From: Cadophora sp. MPI-SDFR-AT-0126 | Taxonomy: Eukaryota; Ascomycota; Leotiomycetes; Helotiales; Ploettnerulaceae | Direction of reading: 5' to 3' | Assembly: GCA_020747065.1 (NCBI GenBank) | Contig: JAGMVK010000028.1 | Location: forward strand, 62,001-126,000 | DNA length: 64,000 bases | In this document: in pieces, positions 15,964 to 26,072 of the stretch | How the letters are laid out: each line of letters begins with the position of its first letter | Numbering within the stretch: the first letter of the stretch is position 1 | Notes under the pieces: model-generated | Told to the model about the DNA's origin: nothing | What the model saw: only the letters and a program-made list of their open reading frames with translations | Databases searched by the model: none | Program-made: the position numbers and the translations under genes

Positions 15964-17867
15964 TTACGGTTGCTCGATAAATCCTTCTCGGACGTTCGTT
16001 GACAAGTATCCGTGCCATCCTCCCTGCACAGCTTGCCGCCAAGAATCAAAGAGGTCGAATGCATGGGGTCTGAGTGGCAAGTTCACGTCGTCAGAAATAA
16101 CACTATCATAGACCTCAACGTTCACGGCTTGCATGACTCCTTGTGGGTCTTGTTTCCAGGAAGCTTTTGCAACGACCTGAACTGCATCTTCATCATTGTC
16201 AAGCTCAGTGTAACCATATCGCATATAGAAAGCCAAGATATCGCCATCTTCAGACACTGGCATCAATAGTGGGATGAGCCGACTCCGCAATGGGCCCAGG
16301 TAGGAGTTCACACCCAGCCGTTCCGGGTTGTTTCGATTAATCCTCGCTTGCAACTGGCACATGATTTCGAGTGTGTTAGCCATCGCAAATCCATTTGAGA
16401 GTCCTTCGTGACCGATCACGCGAAGTGTATCGATTATCCACTGCTGCCAGGCTACCGAGTAACAGCGACGGGCTCCGTGGTAAACAAGAGTTGAAATCCC
16501 CATGTTCACGGCATCGCACGGCTTGTATGGTTTCGAGGAATTTTGATTGTCTCGCCCAGTCAAGCCGGCTGTAATTGACAGCGTCTGATAAACAAGATTG
16601 AAAGCTTCGAGTTCTCGCGGTTGTGGATCAGGGTCGGTTGTGCTGAGCATTGCCACTGCACAGCCCAAATAGCAATTCGCTGTAGCGAGGTTGAGAGCTG
16701 CATCGTTACAAGCGAATCGACATGGCCGAGGTGGAATTGGATGCGTCGCGACATCTTTAGGATCCAAAGCTTCGATCACTTCAAGTTCCTGGCAGCTCTC
16801 GAAAGTGCCCGGTGAATTTGCTTTCCAGAGCTGCATTTCCGAATAGAAACCAAGAAGCTCGGCACGATTCGGACGTTCCGAGACTGGACTCCAGCATCCC
16901 CAAACGACTCGGCTGAATGTGTTGTGAGCACAGATTATTTGTATCTGGCGGAAGCCTTCACTAGCAATTCGATCATTGAGCGTCATTCCGCAGTATTCGA
17001 TTGCCGGTCTGTTCCAGAATGGGCGCTCCATGATTGCTCTGTCTGAGAAACGTAGGAACGACGAGCATGCGTAGGGCACTACTTTCTGTGCGAGAAAGTC
17101 TAGCCGTAACATTGCATCGTAGACTGGAATCATGTTTGAGATCTCCCGCTCGGAAAGTTGTTCTTCAGAGTTCCTCATGACCTGGATCGCAGCCCAAAGA
17201 TGACCAAAAGCACCTTTTGGATTCTCCATAAAACACTAGGGGAAATAAGCAATATTCCACTTCTACTTTCCAATAAACATACCTCAAAATAAGCAAGTAG
17301 CATGAGAACGGCCATGATTGCAAGAATATCCGGCACTGATCTACTACCTAGATGACTGGGAAGCATTTGCAAAGTCTTGCCGTACGACTTCAACCCCAGA
17401 ACCTTCATCTGCGCCGCACCCTGGAGGTCTCTATGCTGGCAGGCCAAAAGAGTCGCACGATGCATCGCTCCGATCGCCAACAATGCTTCATACACTATAT
17501 CGACACCATACGACATCTGAGCGACCTGATCTCGCCAGAACTCGATATGGTCATTGCGGAAGAGGCGAACCGCTGTCGTCGTGATGAAGTGATGATACAG
17601 AGGCAGCTCTTCCTGTCTCCAGTTCGTGTGCCTCCATGCTAGATCCTGTACCAATTCTGATGAGCCTTCACGAGAGCTTTGCTGTGGCGATGTTCTCGTC
17701 ACGGATCGTGGACGCGGGGCTTCTCCTGCTGACCGCGGAGGATCGTACCCGCCACATTCGAAATTCGCAGTGCGACAGCGAGAGCAAGCTGGTTTTCCTT
17801 CGTCGCATTTCACACGTCTCCTTCGACATGTTATACAGCCGGTACGGACTCGTATTCTTCGGTCCAT
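15964..17867 (-). CDS. Zn2Cys6 transcription factor
   Basis: Two exons (17867-17283, 17235-15964), 618 residues. The N-terminal binuclear zinc cluster has Cys 11, 14, 21, 28, 31 and 38 with the basic run CRRRRVKC, the DNA-contacting helix of GAL4-type fungal activators. The long remainder is helical and resembles the fungal-specific transcription factor regulatory domain (ENPKGAFGHLWAAIQVM, LLGFYSEMQLWKA). The intron joins AYFE to CFMENPKG in phase 0 and has a clear GTATGT donor. It is a nuclear DNA-binding regulator. The target genes are unknown. The neighbouring DJ-1-like gene is convergent and shares no promoter with it. Confidence 0.92.
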
Positions 17868-18477
17868 GGCTGCGAAGATAATCGAGATGAGATATATTTG
17901 ATGTTCCGGATTGAAGGTGTGGCTTTGAGGACGTTGGAGGTTGAAGAATTGATTTCTAAGCAGGGCACAGCACTGTGCCCAGACTGACTAACTGGTGTGT
18001 GCAGAACGAGCCTGCAAATCAGGAAGTGCTCGCTAAAACTCAGGGGCGATTTCGGATTCGCTTCGCTGAATCGTTCACTGGTTCAATGATTTTAGGGGTA
18101 AACAATCAACGCTTTCAACTCTGCTGGGCTGGCCATGAAAGTGTCCAAAGACACAACTTTTAGGAACGAAACAAAATCATCAATAGAGTTGAATGAAAAG
18201 GATGTGATGGTTCATTGGCTCATGCCTGCTACAACATCGTTCTAACAAGGTACATCACTTCATTTAAGAGCGCTGCCTACGATCTTCGTCACCGAACATC
18301 GTGGAGTCGTTGAACCAGGCTTCCCAGTTTCAAGCAAGATCATGGTTCGGATAAACTCCACTCCACATGTGCCTTATAAACCCACGAAAGCTGACATCAT
18401 GCAGACAGAACAATCTAGCAAGAGATCCTCATTATATCATGAGTATGAGGCACAGTGGTACCTTTGTAGCTAGCCTA

Positions 18478-18509
<32 letters not shown>

Positions 18510-19095: not shown

Positions 19096-22000
19096 TCAAT
19101 TCGTCACGGACTTGTCGAGCGGATGTGAAGCAACTGCATCGCTCTTACTCAACTCCGAAATCAATCCATTCGTAGCCCAGGTTTGAAAAAGCGGGTAGGC
19201 GCCTAGAATTACAAAGTCAGCGCTGTTCTCACATTTTCGGGGCTGGAAAGCTGAACTTACTACAATCACCGCCAAAGTACGCTCCGTACCGCTCCTCCTG
19301 GCATGATCCTGAGCCGATAGTCGTCGCACAGTCCTTGACATTTGTTTGAGTGAGCGGTACCTCCATGTACGCGGCCTTGGACATGTCGTCTGCTTTGAAA
19401 GTTACGCCAAACCAGCCGTCGAGGGTGCCGCCTGAGACGACTTGTGTTGCGCTGCCAGAGTAGCCAGACCCGCAAGTGAGTGGGCCTGCTCGGCACTATT
19501 CTGAGGTTAGTATTATCTTGCGAACTCCATTTGAACATCTGAAATGGAAGTGAAAGAGGAAAGAGGAGACGTGGGTTACATACCACTGGAGGAAGAATGC
19601 CTCCATATTCACGGAAGTCGTCACACCATTCTGCACCACTGCACACTTCTGTCGAAACACCCTTGTAGACAACCACACCGTTGATAGTCCCCCTATCAGC
19701 CGTAGATTGCGAAGAAGACGTAATGATATACACAGCCAAGCAGTCAGGAATCAGAGCGGCGGCAGTATTACTAGGTGTAGACCCTCCGGATGTCTTTGTC
19801 GCAGTCGCAGTAACTAGAGGTGTTGACCCGCCCCAATTTCCGTAGTTTGGACTATCTGGATTCTGGACACTGTCTGGGTTCGAGGGATCCTCGAAATCGG
19901 GATTGTGAGTGAAGTTCGAGTTTGAACAGAAGTATCCAGAGCATATCACGCCGCAGCCTGCTCCTGATGTGCATGTAGGAGATGGGGTTACGGCGGATTG
20001 AATCGTGATGGGCGAGGGTACTGGCACACTACCAATAGCGCCGTCGCCGCCTACAACACTGCCGCTACCTGTTTGTCCATTCCAAATGACTTTCTGATCA
20101 TAGCGGATATTCAGTGCGTTTGCTGGAATGCCGGGGCGCCTTTGGCGAACGTATGCAAGGCGTAGGATCTCTGCCTTGACGGACGCGGCAGTGTTGAAAG
20201 TTCCTGGGGAAACACCTCGAAGGTAGGCGGCGAGTCCGGCGACTGTCGCTCCAGCGTATGATGTTCCGCTGGCGTATGTATACGCCGAGTAGCCACTCAG
20301 AGGATTTGGCAGAGCGACATAGGCACCAGGTGCATAGACAGTAACCCAGTCCGCCATGCTGTGGGCGTCATATGTCATGCCATCGCTTTGCACCGAGCCA
20401 GTGATAATCAGATCCGGAATGTAATTAGCGTTGGCTGGATCACCGAACAGCCCTGGGTAGCCTTGTGGATAGCCTACGGTATTGCCCGCGCCAGTCACGA
20501 AGACGGCTCCGGTATCAATGATCTTTTGGATGATGTATGCCATCTTTGCAAGGTACGCCGGCGTCAACTGGCTCTTGGGAATAGAAAGGGACATGTTGAC
20601 CACTGCGGACTTTCCCCTCGCCCATGCAACGATGTCCTCATGAATCTTGACGAGGGAATCGAGCCAGTGATCGTTAAATCTCTTCTCATAATTGATGACT
20701 GTGGCGGTCATTGAAGTTTTTTTACCTAGACCAAGGTTTTTTCCAGCCATCTTGCCGATGCATTTGGTTCCGTGGCGTTTGTCGTCGATCTCCTAGAGTA
20801 AGGCGACATGAGTCAGTATGCGTCTTCCGAGAGGTACCAAGAGAGTCTAGAGTAGATGTGAACTTCTCGGGGGCATGAAATGTAGAACACGCCGAGACTT
20901 AGGGGGTGTACATACTTGGACAGAAGACAGCGGGAACGGCCCGGGGTACAGAGGCGTGATTAGAAGATCGGACAGCTCATCATGGTTGGGTTCGAAGCCC
21001 CAATCACAACTGTAGAGATATGTTCCCTCCCCAGCTGAGTCGTCGTAGTTGAAAGACTGACCAATCCCGCCATTTGACGACTGGCTCGTTGGTGGCCACG
21101 AGAGCTGGATCATGTTCTCGTCGATGAGTCTGTCTTTGTACGGCACCGAGGCGCGCTTTTCTATCAGAGGCATGGTGTCATTGAAAAGATAATCGTTTTC
21201 ATGAGCTCCTTCATCTTGGACGCTTGGATTAGTGACAATGCCTTCATACGCGGCTGCAGTTGCTGGCCCTCGAGGGATGTAGACCTCTGCGACGCCTGCG
21301 ATGGTACTGAAGTATTCCGCTTGAAGATCGGTGCAACTATTGAGGTAGAAGAAGATGGTACCAAGAGCGTTACTCTTTGACTCGTAAGTGATCGTGGCCC
21401 GGCCTGCGAGTGAGGTTCTGATACTGGCAACGTTATTCGGATCAGTTGGAATGACGATTCTTGGCCAGGTGGTTGCCACTGAGGCTTCAGTGGTTGTGCG
21501 TGTAATATCTTCAGCACCGCAGCCCGTGACCTGCGTACAGAAAGAAATCGTAGTGGTTGCAGTGGTAGTCACTCGCTTCTTCAAGTTGGCAAACTCTCCA
21601 TATGGAATTTCAGGCCCTGGGGTGACTGAGGGGGCAGAAATTGCACGTTTGGCAACAATGTCGTAAGATAGTGTAGTAGTGCAGACACTGGCTACCGCAG
21701 TTTCGCAGTACTCCTCCGCGGGATCCTGGGCACGAAAGGTGGGTACGCGATTGGTGCCAATACTAAAGGTATTATTGTCAGTCTGTCGGAAAAAGAAGCA
21801 AGCAGGTTGATATACGTACGTTATTTCTGGCCAGTCAATCGGAGGTAGAGTGACTCCCGGGGGCAGTGGTGCTGGTCCAATGGGAGGTGGTCCTCCACTT
21901 TGCTAGATGTTAGTATGCAGTAGAGTAGGTGGAGGTTCTAGATCCTCACATAGGGTAAATGCCTGGGAGCCAGCCACTAAGAGTGATACCTCCGAAGTTC

Positions 22001-24782
22001 GGGGGGCATATCTGGAAGAAGTGTGAGCACATTTCTCTTTCAATTGTCGTTAAACTTACCCAGATGAACCAGGCCCAGCACGGGATAACAGGCGTAGGAT
22101 TACCATTCACCGGAATGACCGTGGGTTCCGAGATCCATTGAGTGACCCACTACATCAATGTTAAGTTAGAGCCGAACATTATTGATATGGATTTATACAT
22201 ACAGATACAGTCTGTGGGGGAAATGTTGTCACTGGCGTCGGATCAGCAGTCCAGTAGAAGTAGAACGGCGCAGCATTAGAAGTCGAGGAGCTTTGAGTGC
22301 CAGTTGGCACCGGGGCTGTAGTTCCGTAGGGCCATGGAGCTGGCCAGATGGATCTCGGCGATGGGGTCCCAGGAATACCAGAAACTGACCTTGGAGTGAT
22401 CATGAAAGGAGGGGGCTGAACACTTGGCAATGGGTAAACCACTGGTGCGAAAGCACCGCTGGTTGTGGTTGTCAGATTGTAATTCGACACGCCTATCTTC
22501 GAAGTCGTCACGGCTGGTTGAATGATGACAGTCGTGATGGTTGTCGCGGTGTATGATCCATCACCACCAACACCACCAATCTCAAGGGACGTAGTAATCG
22601 GAGGGAGGCTGATGGTAGTGGGTTCTCCGAGAGTGATTGGTGGCAGTACCATTATGCATGGAGGGTCGCATGCTGCTGTGGGATTAGCCCATAGGGCTGG
22701 GTCGTAAGTGACGATTGGAATATCTCTGCCGACACCATTCCCATCACCGTCACTTTCTGTGCAGGAGTCCGGTGTGTAGCCGTGACCAACAGCAAAATTG
22801 CACAGACCATAATCCTCGGTTCCATCTGTGTAGTATCCTGTCTTACCTGTCGAAGGGGGCGCATCAACGAGGATGCCTGTTTGGGCTGAGGTATGAAGTC
22901 AGTATTTATTGCTCTCTGGGTTAGATTTTCTCCACAAGAACGAGTGCTTCAAGAGTGCGCATTGACGGTCCTCGAATAGCCACACAGGGCCAATAAGTAA
23001 AAGGGAGAGAACTTACTGCATGTGCAGGCGTGCATGGGGCAGAATCCGTAGTTGCATCCGAAGCTACAAAGCCCAGAAAAGCCGCCAGATCCCGTACCAG
23101 CTATACAAGCTGGGGGCAAGAAAGGCGAGAAGGTTGGAACCGTACCAGCATTCGGGGTTGTACTGCAAAGCTCACTTGGGCAGTAGCCATGATTACAAGC
23201 AAAGCTGCAAAGTCCGGCAAGAATCATGCTCATCCCAGCTGCTGGATACCCTTCGACGCCCACAATCTTGGGGGGATCAGCGACCCCCATCTGGAGGCAA
23301 ATGCATGCACTGCTCGGGCAGTATCCATTTGCGCATGTGAATGAACAGATTCCCTCATATTCGTAAACTCCAGTGCCTCTTGTGCAATTCAACTCGGCAA
23401 GATTCTTTGGGGGAGCGACTGGGGATGCGAGATCGGGTCCTCGACCGACACCAACCCAGGCATTATAGTTTTGGTAGCCCTCTGAGCATCCTGTTGAAAT
23501 CGCCTCGCCGTTCATGGTCATAACCGTCGAGCCACTACGGGAAATCGTGACTGTGACTGTGCCAGTGGCTCCATTGAGCGGGACACTGCCGTAGTAGATA
23601 CCAACACCTCCGTACGGTGTAAAATCCCACGCGGCTTTCTGAGAGCTTCCACCAATACTCACAGTGACATCAGCTAAACTGGTCAACAAAGCTTGAAAGT
23701 AGATTTTGTCGGTCAGCAGGTCCCCCGGTGGATATTCCAGATGTAGCTGAGTTGCAGTGTCACCAGTCGTGCCGCCATCACTACAAGCACCAAGTGGACT
23801 GAGACGATACCAACTAACAACTGCCTCCTGGAGAATCTTGGCAGTTCCAGTTTTGTACAAACCAATGTAGTAGTAAAGGAATTCTCGCCATCCATCGTGC
23901 GGCATTGCCTCGACGTAGTTGTAGGGAGCTTTTCCGGTCTCGAAAGCCTCGTACTGAGTGGGATCACGTGCACCGATGTAGTGTGATTCTCCGAAGTCGT
24001 TCCATGAGATGATTTCGATGAACTCTGGTGGGTGGTCGATGGAAATCATTTGCTGCCATCGATGAAACCAGAGATCATCACCTCGCCATAACCAATTCTT
24101 GTTGTATCCAGGCAGGTTGGTGTAAAACCATGGCGAGACAGGTGCCATGTACGGTAGTCCATTCAGGAATTGATAATAAGAAGCGTCAGGATAGGTGGTC
24201 ATGTTCTGTTCCCCCTTTGGCCATGCATCCCACGAAAAGAGTCCATCCGCTGTTCCGAGCTCAACCGCATCTTGTGCCCCAAGTGATGACCAATCTGGAA
24301 TAAAAAAGCAATTGGTCGACTTCTTTACTTCCGGCCAGTCGTCAGACCTTTCAGGTCCTTCGAAAGTAGATACGAGTGGTTGAGATCCTCTGTTGAAGTA
24401 TGACGAGCTTGCCGCGTATGTCTTGATCAGGCTTTCGACTGTTGCTTTGGGCCAAGCTCCGTTTCCAGCGTAATCGAAGGAGAAGAACAGCTTGAAGCCA
24501 GTGCTCTCAGCTGCTTTGAAGGCTTTTGGAAGAGCATCATCATTGATGCCATCGTTGTAGGCGATGTTGAGGGCAAATGCGTCGATGCCTGCACTCATCG
24601 CGGTGGTCATTTCGAAGGACCAGTCATTCCACTCCCAAGAACGAGTGTTTCCAACCTAGATCAACATTAGTATATGGGAGTAGGAGTTGGAAATCATAGC
24701 TTACCATGAAATGAGCGAAAACGGACTTCGCCTGCACACGGGCAAGGCCCATGAGCAGAACGACAGACCAGAGGAGAAGCAT
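19096..24782 (-). CDS. Secreted GH71 alpha-1,3-glucanase fused to S8 subtilase
   Basis: Ten exons: 24782-24705, 24655-23017, 22885-22203, 22149-22060, 22011-21950, 21897-21820, 21762-20916, 20792-19584, 19495-19261 and 19202-19096. All phases agree, giving 1675 residues. Residues 1-18 are a signal peptide (LLLWSVVLLMGLARVQA). Residues 19-330 are GH71, with SVFAHFMVGNT, DAFALNIAYNDG and SWNDFGESHYIG. A beta-domain follows, then three GLCSFxCxxGYCP-type Cys repeats (residues 461-572) and a fourth degenerate one. Next come a Ser/Thr/Pro linker and a WFIWICPPNFGG module. From residue 1120 an S8 domain has Asp1130 (CDWG), His1166 (RHGT), Asn1263 (GAGN) and Ser1337 (GTSYAGA). Dibasic sites lie at 915-916, 938-940 and 1079-1080. 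It should hydrolyse fungal alpha-1,3-glucan and proteins outside the cell. Least certain are the AAG acceptor at 21898 and the ATAG acceptor at 19496. Confidence 0.88.
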
Positions 24783-25177: not shown

Positions 25178-26072
25178 CTATGCTCCTTTGTCTGACATCC
25201 CCACACCGAGCAAACGCCTAAAAGCTTCTTCCATCTCTGATGCCTGGTCACTGTGATCCATTGTTGCGGCGGCCGGCATTTCGACCTCGTGGTTTCTGGC
25301 TTTTGTGGCAAAATACCCGAAGCTTTCGTACACACCATGACCCGATTTCGACGAACACTCGCTGAAATAGCAGCCGAGATTTCTAGCAATTACCTCGCCT
25401 TCTCTGTACGAGATGCATGCTTCATTCTCGCTCTCGGGTCTTGTATCCGATTTCAAGCCGAAGATCGCAGTCGGAATCGTGATGGTTGGTGTAATGCTTC
25501 TATGGGTAATCTCGTCGTGAAGCTTTGACACAAAATCTAGCGATGCCCGAGAACAAACGTCGTAAGCAAGAATGAGCCCAAAGTAATCATATCTCAAGAA
25601 CATGCCAGGAAATGAAGCTTCGACGTCAGTGGCGAACACCACTTTCAGACAGTACATGTAGCCGTCGCAGTAATACTTCGGGACTTCGTCTTCCATCATT
25701 AACAAAGATTCTTCTAGCTTCGCCCCGCCGTGCATATGCCCGTAGAGTAACTGTAACACAGATTTTGTCAGTGATAGAGGCAGATTGGGAAATGCGACGA
25801 AGACATACGCTGTTCAAAAGCGTCTTCTTTCCAACTCCGGGCGCTCCCATTACAAGCAGAAGGATCTGCTTATCCATATTACAGTCTGGCTTGAGAACGA
25901 ACTTGCCATCACGTTTCAGCGACCCCCATTTACTCTCGTGAATCGCGTCGAGTATCGTGGCTCGTTCGACGCCTGGATCTGATCCTGAAATTCCCGTTGC
26001 CGAAGACAAGGGCGCGGGCATCCGGGCCGACCTCCTTCTCCTTCGGATGAACCAGTTTTTGAAGGATGGCAT
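25178..26072 (-). CDS. Divergent Ras-like small GTPase
   Basis: Two exons (26072-25809, 25750-25178), 278 residues. After a basic N-terminal stretch (FIRRRRRSARMP) a P-loop reads LVMGAPGVGKKTLLN at about residues 74-88. A Ras-like fold follows: LILAYDVCSRASLDFV, then a G4-like FGLKSD and a G5-like CSSKSGHGVYESF. Two key features are altered. The residue after GK in Walker A is Lys, where Ras proteins have the Mg-binding Ser or Thr. The G3 DxxG motif is replaced in FATDVEASFPGMF. The C-terminus ends SDKGA with no CaaX box, so prenylation is not expected. GTP hydrolysis is doubtful. It may be a pseudo-GTPase or a nucleotide-binding adaptor. The intron falls just after the P-loop. Confidence 0.75.

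Follow-up and report, generated by a model that had tools for sequence, protein, structure and literature searches.

In the accessible part of a CAZy-wide analysis of GH71 modularity, the extra domains found on these alpha-1,3-glucanases are carbohydrate-binding modules (CBMs), GH18, GT4 and a domain of unknown function, and a protease is not named (PMC12394665). Processing of secreted fungal precursors is also described: according to the available portion of the source, Aspergillus KexB processes proproteins at Lys-Arg (KR) or Arg-Arg (RR) pairs (PMC7761569). Here we analyse a gene that appears to join these two themes. It lies in a 64,000-nucleotide stretch of the Cadophora sp. MPI-SDFR-AT-0126 genome (contig JAGMVK010000028.1, positions 62,001 to 126,000; hereafter the window), and it is predicted to encode a GH71 domain and a subtilisin-like S8 protease domain in one chain. 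We consider it likely, with a probability of about 0.7, that this single precursor is matured by kexin-type cleavage at a conserved Lys-Arg site. The predicted products would likely be a glucanase half of ~114 kDa and a protease half of ~63 kDa (calculated masses).

The fusion gene runs on the minus strand from 24782 to 19096 of the window, and all coordinates of its parts refer to that strand. Joining of ten predicted exons gives 1,675 residues plus stop, with no internal stop and a calculated mass of 178 kDa, and all phases fit across nine GT..AG introns of 48-131 nt, in agreement with the preliminary description of this locus. A Pfam scan of the whole protein (E up to 10) returned two families only, GH71 and Peptidase_S8, so that both expected domains are found in the same chain. 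The GH71 domain (aa 21-405; 23519..24722, with intron 1 inside) matches PF03659 with E 6.9e-135 and 450 bits against a cut-off of 34, over model positions 1-374 of 375. Solved structures matching it by sequence are A. nidulans GH71 (9fnf, E 3e-56) and agn1. Comparison with solved GH71 enzymes places the acidic dyad at D246xxE249 (23987..23998), within WNDxGESHYI, the motif to which D265/E268 of AnGH71C belong as well; the dyad is intact as judged from sequence, and alpha-1,3-glucan activity is predicted from the family. Peptidase_S8 is matched at aa 1130-1372 (PF00082, E 4.6e-14, 52.9 bits against a cut-off of 21.8), within a protease domain that we place at aa 1081-1395 (20085..21152, with intron 7 inside) from Pfam and alignment to solved subtilases. 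By sequence, this part matches A. fumigatus alkaline protease 1 (8gko, E 7e-13) and proteinase K. Asp1130 (21003..21005), His1166 (20772..20774), the oxyanion-hole Asn1263 (20481..20483) and Ser1337 (20259..20261) align with the catalytic residues of solved subtilases, as had been claimed from the first inspection of the sequence.

It had also been claimed that both enzymes are secreted as one chain, and here what lies between them points the other way. An I9-type prodomain is predicted at aa 975-1050 (21243..21470), from an AF2 model aligned to pro-subtilisins; what was modelled is the relative P0123 rather than the window protein itself, and confidence is low in the tail and linker of this model. 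At the pro/mature boundary, located by the pro-subtilisin alignment and by an alignment of related protease regions, stands the Lys-Arg pair K1079-R1080 (LIEKR/ASVP, the slash marking the end of the pair; 21153..21158). The second alignment was counted over 25 rows, made up of the window protein itself and of relatives with 26-60% identity to it, namely 15 GH71 rows, two rows with a PF12708 head and seven of the 16 fragment rows P0123-P0138 (P0129, P0130 and P0132-P0138 were left out, as were the distant rows P0140-P0145 and P0148). Of 23 rows, 20 (among them the window protein) keep at the boundary a dibasic pair that agrees with the kexin-substrate motif (19 KR, one RR); in P0001, P0005, P0013, P0014 and P0128, which also hold an upstream dibasic pair, it was read from the alignment. 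Given the predicted prodomain and the conserved boundary site, the two enzymes are therefore more likely separated during secretion. The same alignment reveals two further Lys-Arg sites upstream, K915-R916 (VAKR/AIS; 21645..21650) and K939-R940 (LKKR/VTT; 21573..21578), while a second dibasic site stands behind the S8 domain in 17 of 21 rows (P0124 is not counted, as its RR precedes the WNGQ motif). Between GH71 and the catalytic Asp, 13 of 16 rows (P0009, P0010 and P0012 left out) contain 38 KR dipeptides against 6.9 expected by shuffling, a 5.5-fold excess, and none of 2,000 shuffles exceeded 16; the reverse dipeptide RK occurs six times. Per 1,000 residues after GH71, KR amounts to 3.76 in S8-type proteins (16 rows) and 5.56 in GH18-type proteins (seven), versus 0.88 in M35/GDSL-type proteins (four) and 1.19 in the others (94). 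The genome itself appears to encode a kexin, as a P-domain piece matches beside S8 matches on contig C37.

According to our reading, the chain would enter the secretory pathway by its predicted N-terminal signal. The predicted prodomain would act on the S8 domain both as folding aid and as inhibitor, as pro-subtilisins suggest. Cleavage at Lys-Arg 1080 and the two Lys-Arg sites upstream of it may then be the work of kexin, or of the protease itself, and would release the GH71 half, together with the Cys-rich repeats and the linker, alongside the protease in a 1:1 ratio. With the prodomain gone, the two enzymes would act side by side, the protease opening the protein layer and GH71 cutting the alpha-1,3-glucan of a fungal wall, to judge from their families. 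A fungal-wall target, already suggested in the preliminary description, is still the best reading, given GH71 itself, the same protease region on GH55-type heads and the GH18 partners of other GH71 proteins; such glycosidase heads and partners would fit fungal-wall material. Glucanase and protease would probably work together on fungal walls, and from sequence the wall attacked could be that of a prey, a partner or the fungus itself.

Several observations weigh against this reading, which as a whole is built on sequence and on the predicted fold of P0123. The boundary pair is missing from P0009 and P0012, which are shortened there, perhaps by gene-model errors, and from P0091, which has other residues. 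The dibasic site behind S8 is absent in the window protein, P0123, P0124 and P0125. The I9 prodomain model PF05922 has no Pfam match in the window protein (E up to 10), the pro/mature boundary falls in a low-confidence part of the P0123 model, and this model is only ~14-24% identical to the listed solved enzymes, with a distant S8 match. The gene models of six relatives (P0006, P0008-P0012) lack pieces of S8, by annotation error or decay, and in P0122 the catalytic Asp is replaced. The residue following that Asp is aromatic in 21 of 24 rows and Thr in all four stand-alone proteases compared, so that D-aromatic-G is, on this alignment, a signature of the protease region found in fusions. With D-W-G and a distant S8 match, protease activity is therefore not to be presumed. 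Finally, two A. nidulans GH71 enzymes were minimally active on insoluble glucan, according to the accessible part of the report (PMC12394665).

The cleavage proposed above has to be weighed against other explanations. The earlier view, that the chain is never cut and that glucanase and protease stay joined as a two-headed wall-degrading enzyme, fits the presence of both domains with intact catalytic residues in one open chain, and the scarcity of KR in the four GH71 proteins with GDSL, partly also M35, domains suggests that uncut multi-enzyme GH71 chains may exist. However, it leaves the predicted prodomain, the boundary pair and the excess of KR dipeptides unaccounted for. A subtilisin prodomain must be removed for activity, and therefore activation alone would separate the halves; we think it unlikely that the chain stays whole. 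A protease that cleaves itself at the boundary without kexin, Lys-Arg being a remnant or its own preferred site, would be consistent with the prodomain fold predicted in P0123. Alkaline protease 1 and proteinase K mature by autoprocessing, and they are the closest solved relatives. Yet stand-alone proteases have no dibasic pair at this place (three of three rows with residues there; the fourth, P0149, is gapped) whereas the fusions keep it, and the two linker Lys-Arg sites and the dibasic site behind S8 would be superfluous for autoprocessing. Self-cleavage seems less likely to us.

More improbable is a protease domain devoid of catalysis that serves as a binding or scaffold module. The change from D-T-G to D-aromatic-G, the loss of the Asp in P0122 and the gene models without parts of S8 would agree with it, but the catalytic residues are nearly invariant at these identities (gaps set aside, Asp 23 of 24 rows, His 24 of 24, Asn 22 of 22 and Ser 22 of 22) and come together with a predicted prodomain and a putative cut site. 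Two neighbouring genes, one for the glucanase and one for the protease, could also have been merged by our gene model and by many automatic annotations. Our model is drawn from sequence alone, and P0008, with a Ras-like segment in front, suggests that annotation can join neighbours here. Against this, the longest intron between the two halves is 131 nt, and none of the eight internal methionines that lie between residues 440 and 1110 (at 482-1094) is followed by a stretch as hydrophobic as the start of the protein (best 9-residue value 2.21 versus 2.86), so that the separate protease start that would contradict a single precursor was sought by hydropathy and not found. Moreover, linker and protease are kept as a unit behind both GH71 and GH55-type heads, and the same order recurs in three ascomycete classes and in a second copy. 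We regard a merged gene pair as highly improbable and set it aside on intron lengths and the internal methionines; a chance join was rejected because the same two Pfam domains occur together in 13 of 120 listed matches. As far as sequence allows, chance and gene merging are excluded.

The architecture sought in other genomes does exist. Those 13 proteins annotated with both GH71 and S8 come from the 120 listed of 210 matches (E <0.001) in a whole-protein search, and among the matches listed they belong to Aspergillus, Chaetomium, Podospora, Cercophora, Parathielavia, Cadophora and a xylarialean, spanning Eurotiomycetes, Sordariomycetes and Leotiomycetes. P0006 and P0012 also align to S8, though they lack a precomputed S8 domain. 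The genome that contains the window carries five GH71 loci, one of them a second copy of the fusion, with GH71 at C36:792558 and S8 at C36:796967 and 34% identity in the S8 piece found. The Cadophora protein P0014 is found exon by exon at locus L021 (residues 1132-1245 at 100%, residues 1-155 at 98.7%), its identity dropping where the tblastn pieces enter introns. A protein identical to that of the window gene is absent among the matches listed in three protein searches.

When proteins about as long as the whole chain were searched with the protease region, ten matched. Eight are GH71-S8 proteins; in the other two, P0121 (Dothidotthia, named GH55) and P0122 (Colletotrichum, named pectin lyase-like), a PF12708 head precedes a related linker, prodomain and S8. 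In the tree of the protease region, P0121 falls among GH71 rows beside P0014, which is the second Cadophora copy, and its near kin P0013 (95/95), while P0122 forms a long branch of unsure placement. In a tree of 120 GH71 domains, from which P0011 was dropped for its length, at least two changes are required to explain the 15 rows that bear S8. As this tree was made by a quick method and has long branches, and P0122 is unsurely placed, the number of swaps is uncertain. On the sequences compared, linker, prodomain, S8 and start of the tail behave as a movable unit, also found behind GH55-type heads. It is tempting to propose, somewhat short of even odds, a group of kexin-split wall-lysis polyproteins, in which a mobile protease-zymogen cassette (linker, I9-type prodomain, Lys-Arg, D-aromatic-G subtilisin and tail) docks on GH71 and GH55 heads. 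A single messenger would then supply glucanase and latent protease at a constant ratio, and the glucanase half would serve as delivery head.

GH71 heads also carry other partners. GDSL lipase domains occur in P0096, P0111, P0115 and P0116, together with an M35-type metalloprotease in P0096 (27.1 bits, below the Pfam cut-off of 30), P0115 and P0116; a second glucanase-protease fusion, with another protease class and few dibasic sites, is possible. The GH71-GH18 proteins P0052, P0053, P0061, P0063, P0079 and P0082 are ~2,300 aa long with 14-18 dibasic sites each, 13 of the 14 in P0052 lying behind GH18, and these chains are possibly split as well.

Regarding the remaining parts of the gene, exon 1 (24705..24782, aa 1-26) contains the start codon (24780-24782) and a hydrophobic start at residues 1-18 that, by hydropathy only, resembles a signal peptide. 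Exon 2 (23017..24655, aa 27-573) holds the rest of GH71 and repeats 1-3, and exon 3 (22203..22885) repeat 4 and a Ser/Thr/Pro linker, which continues in exon 4 (22060..22149). All four Cys-rich GLCSF-type repeats described earlier are found (aa 461-611; 22770..23353), except that the fourth (GLCNFAVGHGYTP) is degenerate and has lost two of its cysteines. CBM24 appears only in the source names of the relatives P0008, P0015 and P0018. The CPPNFGG module is also present, within CWAWFIWICPPNFGG (aa 824-838; 21988..22080), similar in relatives; CPPNFGG falls in exon 5 (21950..22011). Exon 6 (21820..21897) follows the sole unusual splice site, the intron 5 acceptor AAAG. Exon 7 (20916..21762) contains the three Lys-Arg sites, the prodomain and the catalytic Asp, and exon 8 (19584..20792) the catalytic His, Asn and Ser and the start of the tail, which goes on through exon 9 (19261..19495) to exon 10 with the stop (19096..19202). 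This C-terminal tail (aa 1396-1675; 19099..20084) has a conserved NPDFxDPxNPDSVQNP motif in the alignment of relatives; its last part varies between them, and the end of exon 10 is similar to P0123. The junctions of exons 3-6 and 10 were compared with relatives and those of exon 9 with P0123 and P0124. Against six relatives, seven of nine splice junctions are gap-free within +/-8 residues in at least two relatives. At introns 5 and 6 the alignment is interrupted there by small gaps, including one extra column in the case of intron 5; the four relatives covering both are identical in 11-14 of 17 residues at the former and in 7-9 of 16 at the latter. Intron 6 would also be open in frame if retained, and we keep it as spliced because the insert is missing from the relatives' protein.

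About 400 bp in front of the fusion gene, on the same strand, lies a Ras-like small GTPase gene (25178-26072, minus strand), identified by PF00071 (E 1.8e-10) for the frame 25178-25813 and by eye for the remainder to 26072. In the gene model of P0008, from Parathielavia, the GH71-S8 part is likewise preceded by a Ras-like segment (26.9% identical, E 8e-10). The two genes may have stayed neighbours in two fungal classes or may have been transferred as a block; a Ras-like gene was not found beside the second copy at L021. Downstream are a run of 29 G (18481-18509), ~600 bp from the gene, and regulator-type frames of the zinc-cluster type (15964-17987, minus strand; Zn2Cys6-like motif seen by eye). 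In a profile search, PF08323, which we take to be part of fungal alpha-1,3-glucan synthases, had no match in the genome, where a beta-1,3-glucan synthase control was found in a 1,804-aa frame, and PF00128 had none in any frame >706 aa. These results hint that this fungus has no alpha-1,3-glucan of its own making and uses GH71 on others; this hint depends on the assumed PF08323 link, and we neither use that link as support nor build on the hint.

If the precursor is split as proposed, single fungal genes would yield matched sets of wall-opening enzymes, and public names of the relatives, such as "Alkaline protease 1" or "glycosyl hydrolase", would hide half of the protein. The alternation of an alpha-1,3- or beta-1,3-glucanase head before the same protease zymogen would offer a testable case of modular wall-lysis evolution, and possibly a ready-made enzyme mix against alpha-glucan-covered walls.

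In comparison with known systems, the window protein resembles GH71 alpha-1,3-glucanases or mutanases (AnGH71C, 9fnf; agn1, 8yfh) in its full-length GH71, its DxxE dyad and the GLCSF-type repeats behind the domain, which the other GH71 proteins inspected also have, and differs by carrying a putative protease zymogen. It shares a GH71 head, GLCSF repeats and a second hydrolase with the GH71-GH18 (P0052, P0061) and GH71-M35/GDSL (P0096, P0116) fusions, but these have another partner and no S8 by Pfam, the GH18 type being rich and the M35/GDSL type poor in dibasic sites. In the proteinase K group (S8A) the catalytic Asp is followed by Thr or Ser and Gly; the protease half has D-W-G, and we therefore call it a proteinase-K-like S8 without placing it in that group. 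Fungal proteinase-K-like proteases (alkaline protease 1 or oryzin, cuticle-degrading proteases; 8gko, 5z6o) have the same catalytic residues and, going by the P0123 model, the same predicted fold and prodomain-mature order; they differ in being stand-alone, with D-T-G and without the boundary pair in the three comparable ones, and those listed are ~20-24% identical to the P0123 model. Dibasic Lys-Arg sites between the parts of a secreted precursor are also found in kexin-processed fungal proproteins, as the accessible part of the source describes (PMC7761569), whereas the window precursor, known here through its sequence, would free two different hydrolases, of which the protease would be a zymogen in its own right. 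In the open-licence literature searched at listing level, no GH71-S8 or GH55-S8 fusion came up, though one may have been described earlier. As far as seen, the GH71-S8 fusion combines known parts in an undescribed variant and does not amount to a new kind of system.

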